Shown: in pieces, positions 23,338 to 32,243 of the stretch | Layout: each line of letters opens with the position of its first letter | Numbering within the stretch: the stretch's first letter is position 1 | Assembly (NCBI GenBank): GCA_027451745.1 | Contig: DAIDIP010000008.1 | Span: forward strand, 1 to 64,000 | Direction: 5' to 3' | DNA: 64,000 nt | Source: Candidatus Melainabacteria bacterium | GTDB lineage: Bacteria; Cyanobacteriota; Vampirovibrionia; Obscuribacterales; Obscuribacteraceae | The notes under the pieces: generated by a model | What the model was told of the DNA's origin: nothing | The model's input: the letters and a program-made list of their open reading frames with translations, nothing else | Database searches by the model: none | Translations under genes and position numbers: made by a program

Positions 23338-24351
23338 TTATCTTTTTACGTACTCTATAACGTCTTTAGGGCAATTATAATTGCCAAGCAATTTAATGCG
23401 CACTTCTGGCAATGGATCTTTTGCTAATCGCCAAAATATCTCTGGCGTTATATTAGGATTAGTGGCAACAAGAGAGCGTATAGTGCTGTCTGGATGCATA
23501 GCCAATTCGGCCAATCGGCGAGCTGGTGTTGTAGATCTTTCTGCAATTACTGCCAAGAACTCTCTTTCTATTAGCTTAGACTCTTGGTCGTTAATCTTTT
23601 CTGTTTTTGCTTGCTGAGCAATCTCTACTTTAACACTAGGAACTAAGATCGGGTTTTGACCGCTTTTTAATAAATGCTTCGTTTTTTCATACAAAATATT
23701 TTTGGCTTTTTCTGCTACAAGTGGACTGTTATCATCACAGAGTCTAACTAATAGATCATGAGACAATTTTGCATTATCAAGAACACTTGTTCTGACAATG
23801 TCTTCTCCGTCTCGTGATAAAACGTCTAATATTTCAATATCAATATTTTCATTCAAAGCTACTGATTGACGCACTTCCACTCTATAGTGTGCGGCCAACC
23901 ATTTTAATGTACTCATCGGAGTATTTGGATTTTTGGCAACTACCTGTAATGCTGAAGGCGAAAAATTCGCAAATCCGCAAATGGTTTTATTAGCCTCTTT
24001 ATTGTCTCTACTATTATTAAAAAGCTGTTCGCGATATTGATTTTGCTTATCTATAAATTGTTGATGTGCTTGTTGATTACGCAAAACCCAATCAGCAAAG
24101 TTTTCATTTCGCTTTGCCACAGTTGACTGTTCGGAACTTATCGAATCTTGTTGAGATGGACTATTTGCAAAGTCCATTTCGGTATCTAATACAAGCTCGC
24201 GCTTCATTTCTCTTAGCCGGCGTAATCTTGTACAAGTTATACGGGGACTAATGGATTCTTTAGGTTTTGTCTGTTGCTTGGCAGATAATTCTTCAAAAAG
24301 TTTGCCAATTTGTTTAATAAAAGGAGTGCTGTCTTGGGCTTCCGGTTTCAT
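23338..24351 (-). CDS. leucine-rich-repeat-variant (LRV/HEAT-like) protein
   Basis: A 337-residue cytoplasmic protein. After a charged N-terminal 110 residues come helical repeats of LRV type: VVAKNPNTPMSTLKWLAAHY, VEVRQSVALNENIDIEILDV, LDNAKLSHDLLVRLCDDNSP and, near the end, LVATNPNITPEIFWRLAKDP. The repeats mediate protein binding. The N-terminal Cys cluster that holds an Fe-S centre in the Azotobacter LRV protein is not present. Function unknown. It is divergent from the tyrosine-leader locus, about 460 bases away. Confidence 0.65.
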   Translation of the reverse strand: MKPEAQDSTPFIKQIGKLFEELSAKQQTKPKESISPRITCTRLRRLREMKRELVLDTEMDFANSPSQQDSISSEQSTVAKRNENFADWVLRNQQAHQQFIDKQNQYREQLFNNSRDNKEANKTICGFANFSPSALQVVAKNPNTPMSTLKWLAAHYRVEVRQSVALNENIDIEILDVLSRDGEDIVRTSVLDNAKLSHDLLVRLCDDNSPLVAEKAKNILYEKTKHLLKSGQNPILVPSVKVEIAQQAKTEKINDQESKLIEREFLAVIAERSTTPARRLAELAMHPDSTIRSLVATNPNITPEIFWRLAKDPLPEVRIKLLGNYNCPKDVIEYVKR

Positions 24352-24813
24352 TGGAGATTCCTATAGTGGCTATGGGTTTTCTTAATACCATTCTAGATAA
24401 TTAAAAACAATCATACTTATGGATGAAACCATACTTCAGTATAGGCTAGCCCTAAAAAAGCACAGATTAAGTGTTAATCTAAGACTTTACGACCGATAAT
24501 TAAGCCTAAAACTTATTATCTTCACTTGTAAGGTATGGCTGCCCTATAAATTTCACATTGAATGGATATAAGAAATTGGTTGGGCAAATATTATTCAAGG
24601 ATTGGAAACTAACCGATATGACTTATTTCCGACAGGAGTTATATAAGCCTAAATCTGGAGTCTATCTGCGCATTGCCTTACCTTATAAAAGCTAGAATAG
24701 ATTTAGTTGTTCCTCATTAGGTATCATTTAGATCCGTTCTGCTGTTACACAATTTAAGTTAGATAAAACTTTTACTTGCTTATTCAAATAAACTCTGTTA
24801 ACGTCAAACCATT
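24352..24813. other. AT-rich intergenic region upstream of the tyrosine leader
   Basis: About 460 bases without a convincing gene or RNA. It must hold the promoter of the minus-strand LRV gene and that of the leader operon. I see only weak -10-like elements and cannot place a start site. Confidence 0.4.
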
Positions 24814-24873
24814 ATGATTTATAATAACTCCCAGCCATATTATTACTATTCTTACCCTCAAGGGGTCGGCTAG
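24814..24873 (+). CDS. putative tyrosine-rich leader peptide (19 residues)
   Basis: ATG 24814 to TAG 24871-24873 encodes MIYNNSQPYYYYSYPQGVG. Tyrosine codons are at positions 3, 9, 10, 11, 12 and 14, so 6 of 19 residues. The ORF is followed after 35 bases by a strong intrinsic terminator, and the next gene starts 22 bases after that. This layout is that of amino-acid attenuation leaders such as trpL, hisL and pheL. There is no good Shine-Dalgarno site, but several real genes here lack one too. AT-rich DNA makes TAT/TAC runs by chance more often, so translation is inferred, not shown. Confidence 0.6.
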   Translation: MIYNNSQPYYYYSYPQGVG

Positions 24874-24940
24874 TTGGCGTTGTTATAGAAGATCTAAGAT
24901 CAATCTACAAAAGCCGTCTTGCTGATCAAGACGGCTTTTT
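24832..24940 (+). promoter_or_regulatory. candidate tyrosine-responsive transcription attenuator
   Basis: Four segments can pair in the classic 1:2, 2:3, 3:4 manner. Segment 1 holds AGCC (24833-24836), before the Tyr codons. Segment 2 is GGGTCGGCT (24863-24871), overlapping the leader stop. Segment 3 is AGCCGTCTT (24912-24920), the 5' arm of the terminator. Segment 4 is its 3' arm. Segment 2 pairs with 3 through CGGCT/AGCCG plus G-C and two G-U pairs, with one mismatch. A ribosome stalled at the Tyr codons would leave 2 free to pair with 3 and prevent termination. A ribosome reaching the stop codon would cover 2 and allow the terminator. The pairing was found by eye; no energies were computed. 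Confidence 0.55.
24909..24940 (+). terminator. intrinsic terminator in the leader of the HDO/decarboxylase genes
   Basis: A perfect 13-bp stem (AAAAGCCGTCTTG, 24909-24921, with CAAGACGGCTTTT, 24927-24939), loop CTGAT, and a T-run ending at 24940 followed by ATTTG. It is the strongest terminator seen in the window. It lies 22 bases before the start codon of the HDO-like gene, which makes sense only if it can be bypassed. Confidence 0.9.
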
Positions 24941-24962
24941 ATTTGCATGGAGATATATATGT

Positions 24963-25721
24963 ATGAAAAAGAAGATTCCGCTTGAAATTTTTCGCGGCGA
25001 AGTAATGGCACTAATCAATAATCATCCCATTGTGCAAGCAAATGCGTATACGCAATGGTTTAGCCATGGTGATATTAGTTTGGAACAATTACGACACTTC
25101 ACCAAACAATTCTCAGTATTTAGTCATCTCTTTGTAGAAGCTCAATTGCGCAAATGTTTGAACGCCTTGGATCTTGAAAGCTATAGAGCTAGTAAAGAAA
25201 TTCTTCTCAACGAACTAGGTGTAAGTTTTTCAAAAAACGGTTCTGTTGAAGGAGGACGTTTTCGATTTAGTGCTGCCCTTTTTGAATGGCTAGCTGACTT
25301 TGCCAAACCTCTAGATCTCCGTTTTGAACAATTAGGAAAACGCGCATACGGCACTCGATCAACACTTTGCTTCTGCGACGCTTTATTATTTTGGTATAGT
25401 TCAGACAATCCTTCTACCGCTGCTGGAGCCTCTCATGCTATAGAACATTGGGCTGCGGCAGGATTTTGGAAAGAATTAATTAGTGGTTTGAAAAAGGTTA
25501 AAGCAAACCGATTACCTGATCTTCCTCTTGGATTTTGGATCTGGCATGATCAACTGGAAGATCAACATGCTACTCATACCGATGATGAATTAGCAAAAGT
25601 ATTTTCCAAAGAAGGTTTTTCGGAAGATAATTTCTTAGAGGGCGCTAAAGCAATGCTTGATGCAGTGGCCATTTTTTGGGACGGTTTAGAAACAGACAAG
25701 AAAAAGATGAATGCGGCTTAG
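24963..25721 (+). CDS. heme-oxygenase-fold (HDO-like/CADD/TenA-like) protein
   Basis: A 252-residue all-helical protein of the Haem_oxygenas_2 / iron-containing redox enzyme group (relatives: CADD, UndA, BesC, SznF, PqqC, TenA). Candidate metal ligands: E84 in LLNELG, E161 in HAIEHW, and H195-x3-E199-x2-H202 in WHDQLEDQH. In diiron members the last motif is HxxxDxxH, so D has become E. The His usually found some seven residues after the first Glu is missing: SKNGSVEGGRFRFS stands there. It could therefore be a mono-iron or altered-site enzyme. It is followed by a PLP decarboxylase gene after 36 bases and preceded by the tyrosine leader, so a tyrosine-linked reaction is inferred. Confidence 0.7.
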   Translation: MKKKIPLEIFRGEVMALINNHPIVQANAYTQWFSHGDISLEQLRHFTKQFSVFSHLFVEAQLRKCLNALDLESYRASKEILLNELGVSFSKNGSVEGGRFRFSAALFEWLADFAKPLDLRFEQLGKRAYGTRSTLCFCDALLFWYSSDNPSTAAGASHAIEHWAAAGFWKELISGLKKVKANRLPDLPLGFWIWHDQLEDQHATHTDDELAKVFSKEGFSEDNFLEGAKAMLDAVAIFWDGLETDKKKMNAA

Positions 25722-25757: not shown

Positions 25758-27134
25758 ATGGTCTTAAAAACAACAAGCCTAAATTTGCTCAATCAGGCAA
25801 CTGCGGTCATGGAACAAGGGTTCGAAACATTACCGCCGTTTTCTGCCAATATTGATATCGACAAAATAAAAGACATACTCACAGAAGTAGCAACAAGGAT
25901 GCAAGATAATTTCCCTTATCAGCATCCGCTATATGCTGGCCAGATGCAAAAACCACCCCACACTATTGCTCGTCTTGCTTATGCCTTATCCCTTTGGATT
26001 AACCCCAATAACCATTCTTTAGACGGAGGGCGGGTCAGTTCAATTATGGAAAAAGAAGCGGTAGCGAATATAGCAAAAATGTTTGGCTTTGAGGATTCTC
26101 TTGGTCATTTATGCGGTGGCGGAACAATGGCAAATCTAGAAGCTCTCTGGATATCTAGCAAATTAGCTCCAAACAAATTAATTGTTGCTTCTCAACAGGC
26201 CCATTATACCCATACGAGACTTTGCGATGTTTTGCAGATTCCATTTAAATCAATACCGACTGATCAATTTGGACGCATGAGTATAAGTCATTTAGAAGAT
26301 GTTCTAAAAGAGAATAATGTTGGAACAGTTGTAGTTACTTTAGGAACAACTGCTATAGGATCGATAGATCCACTAGCAAATATTCTCAAATTACAATCGA
26401 AATATAAATTTCGTATTCATATAGATACTGCTTACGGCGGCTATTTTAAGCTAGCTAAAAACCTAGACTCTAACGCTACGGAAGCTTTTAAGCTTATCAA
26501 TCAAGCTGATTCGATAGTTGTAGATCCGCATAAACACGGGTTGCAACCATATGGTTGCGGTTGTGTACTATTTAAAGATCCATCTGTTGGCGCATTCTAT
26601 AAACATGATTCTCCATATACTTATTTTTCTTCGGAAGAATTACACTTAGGGGAAATAAGCCTGGAATGTTCGCGTTCTGGTTCAGCAGCTGTAGCATTAT
26701 GGGCAACCCAAAAACTTCTGCCACTCATGCCTGGTGGAGAATTCGCAACTGATTTGGAAAAATCCAGAGAAGCAGCCTTGCAATTTCATACAAAACTTTC
26801 TCAAGACAAAAGATTTATTTGTCCGTTCGTACCTGAGCTAGATATTATTGTTTATGCTGTGAAAGGTAGCACAGCTAGTGAGTCTTCTAAATTAGCGAAG
26901 GCAGTTTTTGATGCTGCTGCTAAAAAGAGCTTGCATCTTGCCGTAGCTAATCTTCCCAAACACTTTTTTGAATCGAAATGGAAAGATCTCAAATGGGATC
27001 AAGATCATATTTCTTGCCTACGCTCTTGTTTAATGAAGCCAGAACATCTAGATTGGCTTGAAAAAATCTGGCAAATTTTAGATGAAACAACATCAGTTGT
27101 TCTGGAGCAACACAAAGTAGCTGTCAAAAAGTAA
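25758..27134 (+). CDS. group II PLP-dependent amino acid decarboxylase
   Basis: A 458-residue fold-type I enzyme of the aromatic-L-amino-acid / glutamate / diaminobutyrate decarboxylase family. The PLP lysine is K259 in DPHKHG, the ring-stacking His is H149 in QQAHYTHTR, and the PLP-nitrogen Asp is D223 in HIDTAYGG. CGGGTMANLEAL binds the phosphate. The substrate cannot be read directly. The tyrosine-rich leader ahead of the operon makes an aromatic amino acid an attractive guess. A good ribosome site (AGGAG) precedes the ATG. It overlaps a hairpin at its 3' end that is shared with the converging methyltransferase gene. Confidence 0.85.
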   Translation: MVLKTTSLNLLNQATAVMEQGFETLPPFSANIDIDKIKDILTEVATRMQDNFPYQHPLYAGQMQKPPHTIARLAYALSLWINPNNHSLDGGRVSSIMEKEAVANIAKMFGFEDSLGHLCGGGTMANLEALWISSKLAPNKLIVASQQAHYTHTRLCDVLQIPFKSIPTDQFGRMSISHLEDVLKENNVGTVVVTLGTTAIGSIDPLANILKLQSKYKFRIHIDTAYGGYFKLAKNLDSNATEAFKLINQADSIVVDPHKHGLQPYGCGCVLFKDPSVGAFYKHDSPYTYFSSEELHLGEISLECSRSGSAAVALWATQKLLPLMPGGEFATDLEKSREAALQFHTKLSQDKRFICPFVPELDIIVYAVKGSTASESSKLAKAVFDAAAKKSLHLAVANLPKHFFESKWKDLKWDQDHISCLRSCLMKPEHLDWLEKIWQILDETTSVVLEQHKVAVKK

Positions 27135-27158
27135 GATCAATTATTTTTTGATCTTACT
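27130..27158 (-). terminator. hairpin spanning both stops of two convergent genes
   Basis: Exact 11-bp inverted repeat: AGTAAGATCAA (27130-27140) and TTGATCTTACT (27148-27158), loop of 7. It contains the stop codons of both the decarboxylase (27132-27134) and the methyltransferase fusion (27141-27143). On the minus strand it is followed by TTTTTGAC, so it can terminate the minus-strand gene. The plus-strand side has no T-run. Confidence 0.65.
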
Positions 27159-29120
27159 CAATAACTTGCACATATCATCATAACGTCCAAAAGAAGGAAC
27201 AAGATAAACGCCCTGACATAAAGAACGAATCTCTTCAAGCAATTCCATTGCCAGTTCAAGTCCAACTTCGGCACCTTGTTCTTGTGCTTTTTCCATTTGC
27301 TTTCTCAATTTTTCAGGTATTGAAATGCCTGGCACTTCATTATGAAGATATTCAGCATGTCTAAAACTGTGCAAAGGCATAATGCCAATCAATAATGGTT
27401 TAGGACATTCACCAAATGCATCTAAAAAATTAGTTAAATCAGATTTTTCATATATTGGCTGAGTCATAACAAAGTCGGCCCCAGCATCCAGTTTGCGTTT
27501 AAAGCGCTCAATTTCTCCTTTTCGATCCTGCGCATTAGCATTCAAGGCACAGGCTACTGTAAGTCGAGTAGATGAACCAATAGAACTACCGCTAATATCA
27601 AGTCCTTTGTTCAATTGATTGATTATTTTAATTAGTCCAACAGAGTCAACATCATATACAGCTGTGGCATGCACATAATTACCCAAGGCTGGTGGATCGC
27701 CTGTTAAAGCAAGAATATTATTGATACCTAAAGCCTGACAGCCAAGCAAATCTGCCTGAATACCCATTAAATTACGGTCGCGGGTTGTGAAATGAATTAT
27801 TGTTTCCGCACCAATAGCTTGATTTATCAATTGGCAAGTAGCCATAGAAGACATGCGCACTCTTGCCATAGGACTATCGCCAACATTTATTGCATCAGCG
27901 CCAGCTTTAACAAGTTGCTCAGCAGCATGCACTAGCTTTTTTGCCACCGGTCCTTTGGGTGGATCTAATTCAACACTAACAAAAAATTTGCTGCCTTTAT
28001 CTTTGTTTGATCCATCTTTGATAGTCTGCAATCTTTGCGCTAAAGTTCGCTCTTCTGTCTTACTTTCTTTTTGTTCTTTAACTTTAACAGTACTGCCTTT
28101 TTCTCCAGCAACAGCATAATTGCCACTTGTAAAAATAGGTTCTCTAGCCCGTTCTAATATTTTAGATTTTTGTTTTTTTTCTACTGGAGATTTTTCATGT
28201 TCTCTAATATGGTAATCCAACGCGCTACGCATCGCTTTTATATGCTCAGGAGTTGTACCGCAACAACCTCCAATTAACCGTGCCCCAGCATGAATATATG
28301 GCTCAACATAAGAAGCACAATATTCTGGCTTGCTCAAAAATTGATAGCGTCCTCCCATTAGACTAGGCTGACCAGCATTAGGCAAACAAGAAAAGCTTAG
28401 TTTATCGGGCGACAATCCTTGTACTTTTGCTGCTTCGCTTATCCGAAGTAAGCTATCAAATAATGGTCCAGGACCAGCACCGCAATTGATACCAATAATA
28501 TCGGGGGCATGTTTGCCCATTTCCACAACTAACTTTATTGCGTCTTCTGGAGTAGCGCCGAACAATGTATGTCCTTCAACTGAAAAACTTAGCTGAGCAA
28601 CAACTGGCAATTTTGATACCGATCTAGCTGCTAAAATAGCAAGCTTTAATTCCTCCAGAGAAGACATTGTTTCAATAATAAATAAATCGACTCCACCAGC
28701 TAAAAGCCCTTCCATTTGTTCTTTATAAGCTTCGAGAATTTTTTGAGCCGGTATATTGCCTAAAGGCATCAGTAATTGTCCTGTTGGACCAATAGCACCA
28801 GCTATAAAAGCAGGTTGTCCAACTATTTCTCTAGCATTTCTGGCTATTTTTGCAGCCGCGATATTGAGGTCTGAAACTTGTTCGTCCAGTCCACAATTGG
28901 CTAGCCTAAACCGATTTCCAGAGAACGAATTAGTTTCAATTACATCTGCCCCAGCATTTAAATAGTCAATATGGGCTTGAAGGACAATATCTGAACGGGT
29001 TTCATTTAATTGTTCAAAAACAATTTCTGTTGACGCTCCACGTGCATACAATAATGTTCCCAATCCGCCGTCTGCCAATAGAGGCTTATTGTGAATAGTC
29101 TGTAAGAATGGATGAGTCAT
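27141..29120 (-). CDS. bifunctional homocysteine S-methyltransferase / methylenetetrahydrofolate reductase
   Basis: A YitJ-like fusion. Residues about 1-300 are a Zn-dependent homocysteine methyltransferase: LLADGGLGTLLYARG, GINCGAGP and the Zn-binding GGCCGTTPEHI. A charged linker (about 310-370) follows. The C-terminal half is a MetF/MTHFR TIM barrel with FAD: VSVELDPPKG, THFTTRDRN-type IHFTTRDRN, ILALTGDPP and DFVMTQPIYE. It would reduce methylene-THF and methylate homocysteine to methionine. I chose ATG 29120 (MTHPFLQTIHNKPLLADGG) over a non-homologous extension to 29141. It stands alone and is divergent from lepA. Confidence 0.92.
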   Translation of the reverse strand: MTHPFLQTIHNKPLLADGGLGTLLYARGASTEIVFEQLNETRSDIVLQAHIDYLNAGADVIETNSFSGNRFRLANCGLDEQVSDLNIAAAKIARNAREIVGQPAFIAGAIGPTGQLLMPLGNIPAQKILEAYKEQMEGLLAGGVDLFIIETMSSLEELKLAILAARSVSKLPVVAQLSFSVEGHTLFGATPEDAIKLVVEMGKHAPDIIGINCGAGPGPLFDSLLRISEAAKVQGLSPDKLSFSCLPNAGQPSLMGGRYQFLSKPEYCASYVEPYIHAGARLIGGCCGTTPEHIKAMRSALDYHIREHEKSPVEKKQKSKILERAREPIFTSGNYAVAGEKGSTVKVKEQKESKTEERTLAQRLQTIKDGSNKDKGSKFFVSVELDPPKGPVAKKLVHAAEQLVKAGADAINVGDSPMARVRMSSMATCQLINQAIGAETIIHFTTRDRNLMGIQADLLGCQALGINNILALTGDPPALGNYVHATAVYDVDSVGLIKIINQLNKGLDISGSSIGSSTRLTVACALNANAQDRKGEIERFKRKLDAGADFVMTQPIYEKSDLTNFLDAFGECPKPLLIGIMPLHSFRHAEYLHNEVPGISIPEKLRKQMEKAQEQGAEVGLELAMELLEEIRSLCQGVYLVPSFGRYDDMCKLLSKIKK

Positions 29121-29297
29121 ACAAAAATTGACCTTAAACAAAACGAACTTTGAAAGCGTGACTTTAAATAAATAAGTATAGATTTGGCTTAGGGCTTACT
29201 GCCTGGTAATATACCAGAAGTAAAGGTCTTACTGGTAATCTTGCCAGCAAGAGCAGTTAAACTTGGTACAAGCGCCAGCACGGCTTCTTTAGGGCTA

Positions 29298-31385: not shown

Positions 31386-32243
31386 ATGAGCCATAAAAAA
31401 GACAAAAGTCCAGCTAAACGTAAAAAGCCTCGTATTAAAGGCGCTCAGCATAGCAAAGACGAAGCAGCAAGATATAACCATGACCTATTAGCGCAAAGCT
31501 GGCAAGCTAGAGACGAGCTATATATGCAGCTGTTTGGACAGCATCAATATATATCCCCTAGCAATTACGCACCCCCTGCAAAGCTGAAATCTAAAACCAA
31601 AGGTAATGGGCTTAAAGACAATAATCTAAACCAGCAAGAACTTGCCGTGTTTACTTATGCTCCTGACCCACTAAGACCATATTGGACACATATAACGGCT
31701 GGCTTAAGTACACCTTGGTTGCAAGATGATGCCCAAGAAGTATCAGGCTTTGGCTTAGAACTGATGATTAAGTCACCGACAGAAGCAGAATGGCCAGCGC
31801 AAATCTTGCGAACAATGGCATATTATATTTTCAATCATATGGGCACATTGAGTCCCAGCAAACGTTTAGCCCTCAATTCTCCAATAATTGCTGGCAGTGA
31901 TTCGCTATTACGCAATTTACTAATTTGGTACGCTGATGAAGCACCAGATTGCTGGTACCAACTCCCATCGGGTGGCTTTGGTATTTTTGCAGCAGTCGGC
32001 ATTACAGATGACGAAATGCGTTTAACCGAGTCTATTCATGAAGAATACGGCACCTGGTGTATGTTGCAAATACTAAAACGATTAGGGCTCGACCAAACCA
32101 CAGATCCCTCTCGTAAAAGTATTATGGAACGCGAAAATATATCTTCAATCATAGACTCGGTTCAAGAATATGCTCAATACTTTCACAATACTTTCCCGGC
32201 TGCTAATCGTTTAAGTACTGGCGAAGAAGAAGGTCAGAACTAG
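31386..32243 (+). CDS. Suppressor-of-fused (SUFU) domain protein
   Basis: A 285-residue protein with a very basic N-terminus (KDKSPAKRKKPRIKG). The SUFU fold follows from about residue 85: YWTHITAGLSTPWL, SGFGLELMIKSPTEAEWPAQ, LRTMAYYIFNHMGTL and GFGIFAAVGITDDEM. Bacterial SUFU-domain proteins are often immunity proteins next to polymorphic toxins. No toxin gene is adjacent here, so another binding role is possible. It is convergent with pyrF, 12 bases away. Confidence 0.75.
   Translation: MSHKKDKSPAKRKKPRIKGAQHSKDEAARYNHDLLAQSWQARDELYMQLFGQHQYISPSNYAPPAKLKSKTKGNGLKDNNLNQQELAVFTYAPDPLRPYWTHITAGLSTPWLQDDAQEVSGFGLELMIKSPTEAEWPAQILRTMAYYIFNHMGTLSPSKRLALNSPIIAGSDSLLRNLLIWYADEAPDCWYQLPSGGFGIFAAVGITDDEMRLTESIHEEYGTWCMLQILKRLGLDQTTDPSRKSIMERENISSIIDSVQEYAQYFHNTFPAANRLSTGEEEGQN

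Follow-up and report, generated by a model that had tools for sequence, protein, structure and literature searches.

A putative tyrosine-codon attenuator upstream of a heme-oxygenase-like gene in Obscuribacterales

The leaders trpL, pheL and hisL of E. coli each have a short open reading frame (ORF) carrying regulatory codons, a terminator that immediately precedes the structural gene, and, as the alternative to that terminator, an antiterminator that starts at the leader stop codon. In such classical attenuators, the amino acid that is sensed is the product of the operon. Among leaders with aromatic codons, the closest described one that includes a Tyr codon, aroR of Corynebacterium glutamicum (Phe-Tyr-Phe), has aroF as its target and is reported to respond to Phe rather than to Tyr (PMC11802643), and the uORFC-13-1 motif, which lies upstream of aroF in Acholeplasma, is a candidate uORF attenuator with Phe codons (PMC8632094). 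A ribosome-mediated attenuator that reads Tyr codons only was not reported in the literature we searched, chiefly papers free of subscription, and we found there no described example of an attenuator from Obscuribacterales.

Obscuribacterales are non-photosynthetic relatives of cyanobacteria, and the DNA analyzed here (the window; 64,000 nucleotides, G000:C8:1-64000) belongs to a 3.0-Mb assembly from this group that is 96% complete (genome G000). Comparative and thermodynamic evidence predicts that positions 24776-24944 of the window very probably constitute a ribosome-mediated transcription attenuator that reads the supply of charged tRNA-Tyr and would control the gene of a heme-oxygenase-like (HDO-fold) protein. 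The locus shares the parts listed above with trpL, pheL and hisL, possibly together with a 1:2 hairpin, but it differs from them in sensing tyrosine, in an antiterminator that pairs largely with the terminator loop, in being nearly leaderless, in its target (an orphan HDO gene) and in its lineage. With aroR it has in common an aromatic-codon leader that includes Tyr codons, aroR being upstream of an aromatic amino acid gene, but leaders of the window type contain five to six Tyr codons and, without exception, no Phe codon. Like uORFC-13-1, it is a candidate attenuator in which a uORF precedes a terminator and an aromatic amino acid would be sensed, with Tyr rather than Phe codons and in another lineage and before another gene. 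As far as the literature searched goes, a tyrosine-only ribosome-mediated attenuator would be new in kind.

The leader ORF (24814-24873, forward strand, as are the other parts of the locus up to the end of the decarboxylase gene; MIYNNSQPYYYYSYPQGVG and a stop codon) provides region 1 and the regulatory codons. It has 19 codons, of which six (3, 9, 10, 11, 12, and 14) encode Tyr, just as the preliminary description had read it. Several observations indicate that this ORF is more than a chance occurrence: no other ORF of 8-40 codons in the 64-kb window, whichever the strand, has five or more Tyr within six codons, 5000 dinucleotide-shuffled versions of the intergenic region (24352-24962) gave a comparable Tyr-rich ORF in only 5 cases, the leader region folds with a z-score of -3.3, and the same arrangement stands before homologous HDO genes. 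Those of the homologous loci that are named come from Candidatus Obscuribacterales and Candidatus Obscuribacter MAGs, and the genomes holding them share the family of G000. Within this family, nine genomes from four genera have HDO (G000, G005, G009, G012, G029, G098, G113, G118, and G128), and all nine have a Tyr-rich leader; in eight it is upstream of the HDO gene, and in G118 the leader and the HDO gene are on different contigs. Across the homologous leaders (peptides MTARNAYSYYYYTYSLGVG, MTAKNAYSYYYYTYSPGVG, MTVKNAYSYYYYTYSLGVG, MKHQNAYRYQYYYTSREVG, and MSRSVNSYYYYYYRGPAGGA, each followed by a stop codon), TAT and TAC are exchanged at the Tyr codons and neighboring residues vary, with the Tyr codons and the ORF length kept (19 codons in eight of nine genomes, 20 in G009).

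Upstream of the ORF is a promoter-like sequence (24776-24804) that matches consensus, with a -35 element TTGCTT (24776-24781), a 17-nt spacer and an extended -10 element TG-T-TAACGT (24796-24804). In G000, G005, G009, G012, and G118, the pattern TTGnnn-17-TGnTAnnnT precedes the leader ATG by only 6-9 nt, so that the leader RNA probably starts with the AUG or just ahead of it and, judged from sequence, is probably nearly leaderless. No Shine-Dalgarno sequence was seen before the leader AUG.

Downstream of the ORF, an intrinsic terminator (24909-24944 with its U-run) has a perfect 13-bp stem (24909-24921 with 24927-24939) closed by the loop CUGAU (24922-24926). The stem and the distances given in the preliminary description were borne out, but the end it placed at 24940 lies one base earlier, at 24939. 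Across seven aligned leaders the terminator is paired in 100% of cells, and both sides have changed at 2 of 12 pairs.

The antiterminator proved to be built otherwise than first proposed. The preliminary description had paired the segment GGGTCGGCT (24863-24871) with 24912-24920, and an earlier AGCC (24833-24836) with that segment. Both segments are where it placed them, but the pairing of GGGTCGGCT with the terminator arm has one mismatch in nine positions in the window and two to three in relatives, and is thus not conserved. Instead, we found a bulged 13-pair helix, of which 12-13 pairs are formed in each of the seven aligned leaders. Its 5' strand (GGUCGGC, AG, and UGGC; 24864-24878) overlaps the leader stop codon, and its 3' strand (24913-24927) consists of part of the terminator 5' arm and of the terminator loop (GCUGAUC at 24921-24927). 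The main block pairs GGUCGGC, which spans leader codons 17-19, with the terminator loop sequence GCUGAUC, GCCGACC, or GUCGAUC, and in the flanking blocks the AG of the stop codon pairs with CU and (U)GGC with GCC(G). When transcripts that begin at a stalled ribosome and stop where the terminator loop ends were folded independently for G000, G005, and the genomes of genus g12, the same helix was obtained in the same alignment columns. Pairing occurs in 93.4% of cells, as compared to at most 52% when the strands are slid by one to three columns. The variation within this helix is one-sided, consisting of GU/GC exchanges with zero compensatory pairs, and so offers no compensatory evidence for it. 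The diverged G009 leader reaches the same topology with another sequence (GGGGGC with the terminator arm GCCUCC). The preliminary description had asked whether relatives keep the Tyr codons, the position of the stop codon, and the pairing, and this check came out in its favor, although the conserved pairing differs from the register it gave.

In computed ensembles for G000, G005, G012, and G029, the mean pair probability of the antiterminator is 0.84-0.93 with the ribosome at Tyr codon 10, and it drops to 0 with the ribosome at the stop codon. A candidate 1:2 hairpin is formed in the minimum free energy fold by UAUAAUAAC (24820-24828, leader codons 3-5) and GUUGUUAUA (24879-24887). Relatives retain its AAC:GUU core in the form AACGCC:GGCGUU, with a pair probability of 0-0.5 in equilibrium folds. 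The antiterminator already has a probability of 0.2-0.8 in untranslated RNA in such folds, which makes the 1:2 hairpin a weak protector in equilibrium calculations. Together, the conservation and the predicted alternative structures support the original proposal of Tyr-codon attenuation of the trp/his/phe type upstream of the HDO gene.

The transcription start, translation of the leader, stalling, and the response to tyrosine that follow are what we infer from these features. Transcription would start with the leader AUG or a few bases ahead of it, and a ribosome would load on the nearly leaderless RNA. When tyrosine is plentiful, the ribosome would run to the UAG and cover GGUCGGC-UAG, such that no antiterminator could form, the terminator would fold, and transcription would stop. 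When tyrosine is scarce, the ribosome would stall within Tyr codons 9-12, and the exposed GGUCGGC could pair with both the loop and the 5' arm of the terminator; this would block the terminator and let the HDO gene be transcribed, in G000 together with the co-transcribed decarboxylase gene.

Rfam leader families gave zero matches within 24300-25300, even at E = 1; the sRNA matches to Qrr, STnc50, and P9 were weak and sub-threshold, and were judged to be chance. RNA-model matches in four genomes that lack HDO (G006, G027, G035, and G141) were also weak (E 2e-4 to 0.04), and the only one read, that in G006, is a palindromic terminator behind a longer ORF, with no leader. In relatives, a scan for short ORFs ahead of pheA, tyrA, and the tyrA-pheA fusion yielded no convincing Tyr-, Phe-, or Trp-rich leader.

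The second gene (25758-27134) encodes a group II PLP-dependent decarboxylase of 458 aa (PF00282, 4.7e-28). Its best-scoring NCBIfam model, MfnA, is below the cut-off, and its PDB matches are aromatic amino acid and MfnA decarboxylases. Among the loci read, the decarboxylase adjoins HDO only in G000 and G005, two of nine, and unrelated genes follow HDO in G009 and in those g12 genomes with enough downstream DNA. The leader thus tracks the HDO gene, which, of the HDO/decarboxylase pair first proposed to be under Tyr control, is the regulated unit.

The surroundings of the locus vary. On its upstream side, the regulatory region is bordered by a decayed, non-functional remnant of an SBP_bac_3 amino-acid ABC transporter binding protein (24551-24696), of which tblastn aligns 30 aa, interrupted by an in-frame stop, at 70% identity with the SBP of G001, a genome of the same genus; another stretch, GVYLRIALPYKS, resembles the SBP C-terminus SPGVYLRLAPPYQTH. 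In G001 (L109 6969-12562), intact SBP, permease, and ATPase genes are beside the metH/MTHFR gene, and HDO and the decarboxylase are absent from that place. In the window, a homocysteine methyltransferase fused to methylenetetrahydrofolate reductase (27141-29141) is convergent with the decarboxylase gene, and further on (31386-32243) there is a SUFU (Suppressor of fused) domain protein, of a family best known from animals. In G118 (L038 = G118:C61; L011 = G118:C66), foreign sequence starts directly after the U-run of the attenuator terminator and a reverse-transcriptase gene (group II intron) is immediately 5' of the HDO gene, an arrangement that looks like insertion of a group II intron between attenuator and HDO gene.

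The product of the putatively attenuated gene (24963-25721) is a protein of 252 aa that had no match in Pfam or NCBIfam; phmmer of this sequence alone against the PDB also returned nothing. Its AlphaFold2 model has a pLDDT of 89.8 and is less certain at residues 81-100, and the top Foldseek matches are CtCADD (first, with a TM-score of 0.81 by target), HrmI, and BesC. The model thus predicts a seven-helix heme-oxygenase-like fold. E84, E161, H195, E199, and H202 are invariant in the HDO alignment and fit a putative HDO metal site; a sixth ligand, the His after the first Glu in the 3H/3C set of PMC13108848, is not evident there. The fold and the conserved Glu and HxxxExxH positions are those of CADD/4-aminobenzoate synthase, HrmI, BesC, UndA, and PqqC, from which the window protein differs in its identity (<20% in structural alignments), in the one expected His ligand that was not located, and in its predicted Tyr control. 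HDO relatives in other families of the class are 36-54% identical and have no Tyr leader, and most of them coexist with TyrA; in genus g46, from another family (L013-L016), an Lrp/AsnC-type regulator gene directly precedes the HDO gene.

What might such a protein do under tyrosine control? On a single contig, G000 carries DAHP synthase, chorismate mutase, stand-alone prephenate dehydratase (PDT), shikimate kinase, chorismate synthase, aroB, and aroA (the shikimate kinase, aroB, and aroA being named from reading ORFs), and it has no detectable TyrA, which raises the possibility that HDO supplies tyrosine, a biochemical rationale absent from the preliminary description. TyrA occurs in the family in three forms: a canonical one that is PDH_C positive, a fusion of TyrA with prephenate dehydratase (~455 aa), and, found in four g12 genomes, a TyrA-only form. 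The fusion (L078-L090; G010, G035, G027, and others) is found in many Obscuribacterales and has weak similarity to existing TyrA models, and its halves occur separately in HDO genomes. TyrA was not detected in five of the nine HDO genomes (G000, G005, G009, G012, and G118). Weak PF02153 matches in G000, G001, G012, and G118 were set aside, being to 277-aa proteins unlike the TyrA-like proteins of relatives and with the look of proline-biosynthesis reductases. The stand-alone PDTs of G000, G005, and G009 belong to the fusion-type clade, with 100/100 support versus the canonical one, G009 forming a long branch.

Among genomes at least 90% complete, TyrA is missing from 4 of 5 with HDO versus 1 of 21 others (Fisher test p = 0.0016), and among all 50 family genomes from 5 of 9 versus 7 of 41 (p = 0.027), p-values that overstate the support because the genomes are related. 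TyrA presence was scored by hand, with G028 (66% complete, weak match) counted as lacking it. The regulatory sign, together with the missing TyrA, suggests, tentatively and with the odds somewhat against it, that HDO is an O2-dependent tyrosine supplier substituting for TyrA and acting on phenylalanine or on prephenate/arogenate. We counted in its favor the lack of TyrA in five HDO genomes, its association with HDO, the stand-alone PDT, and the lack of a biopterin-dependent Phe hydroxylase (PF00351) in any of the 50 family genomes. Counted against it were the coexistence of HDO with a TyrA-like (TyrA-only) protein, and no PDT, in G029, G098, G113, and G128 of genus g12; the coexistence of the distant, leaderless HDOs with TyrA; and the failure to find chorismate mutase of either type in G005, G009, or g12. 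Also against it, TyrA is lacking in several HDO-less genomes, among them G006 and G017, in which TyrA, prephenate dehydratase, and HDO were all undetected and chorismate synthase is present; these two are probably Phe/Tyr auxotrophs or have unrecognized enzymes. Finally, HDO chemistry as reviewed comprises N-oxygenation, C-C cleavage, desaturation, and rearrangements, with no ring hydroxylation listed (PMC13108848), so aromatic hydroxylation would be a new activity, and no report of an aromatic-hydroxylating HDO was found in the literature searched. Outside the family, two f7 genomes (G067 and G075; at least 94% complete) have a distant HDO, an AroH-type chorismate mutase, and chorismate synthase, with no PDH_C match for TyrA.

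The attenuator may also be real and HDO not make tyrosine, serving instead some other process needed at low tyrosine, for instance a step in scavenging, or a cofactor or metabolite of aromatic origin; we give this about an even chance. The diversity of HDO reactions (PMC13108848) fits such a role, as do the TyrA-like protein kept beside HDO in the four g12 genomes, the distant HDOs that live alongside TyrA, the resemblance of the partner decarboxylase to aromatic/Asp decarboxylases, and the amino-acid ABC transporter genes that G001 has at the same locus instead. However, TyrA is missing from three of the four HDO genera and from two of six g12 genomes, with the Phe-making enzyme kept in three genera, and the rule that classical attenuators sense their operon's product also speaks for a tyrosine-making enzyme.

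CtCADD, the closest solved fold, uses Tyr27/Lys152 as sacrificial residues, and the window protein also has a weak profile match (E = 0.02) to a 4-aminobenzoate synthase, covering the N-terminal part of the latter. HDO could on these grounds be a p-aminobenzoate synthase of the self-sacrificing CADD type, cleaving a tyrosine of its own, with the leader tying it to tyrosine status, but this is improbable: the regulatory sign would be wrong (on at low tyrosine), and close relatives have Phe where the window protein has its N-terminal Tyr29. Slightly less probable still is nascent-chain arrest, in which the peptide in the exit tunnel would sense a small molecule in a TnaC-like manner rather than codon starvation being read. 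The leader does have long Tyr runs, and all leaders except that of G009 end their coding sequence in VG and a stop codon. The GVG end, however, overlaps the antiterminator strand, which accounts for its conservation, and elsewhere residues and Tyr positions drift (YRYQYYYT in G005, SYYYYYYR in G009) with the high number of Tyr codons persisting, as fits codon-dependent stalling. That the ORF is fortuitous, with the hairpin ending upstream transcription and the HDO promoter downstream of or inside the leader, is hardly credible, since the TATAAT at 24820-24825 inside the ORF (with TTAACG 16 nt upstream, an arrangement that would leave the ORF start untranscribed) is absent in relatives and was rejected as a promoter, whereas five genomes conserve the pattern that precedes the ORF, leader peptide, stop, and antiterminator are conserved among relatives, and shuffles seldom give such an ORF.

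A Tyr-specific ribosome-mediated attenuator would fill a gap among amino acid leaders. The regulatory logic also serves as a functional clue to an orphan enzyme of a large and mostly uncharacterized metalloenzyme superfamily, and the attenuator and the absence of TyrA lead to a testable prediction, that HDO supplies tyrosine. At its fullest, and it is a reading we put forward with some doubt, a new O2-dependent Tyr-producing HDO, working by pterin-free Phe 4-hydroxylation or by oxidative decarboxylation of prephenate/arogenate, may have replaced TyrA in several Obscuribacterales lineages under a Tyr-only ribosome-mediated attenuator. If this is true, tyrosine auxotrophies called from genomes would have to be revised.
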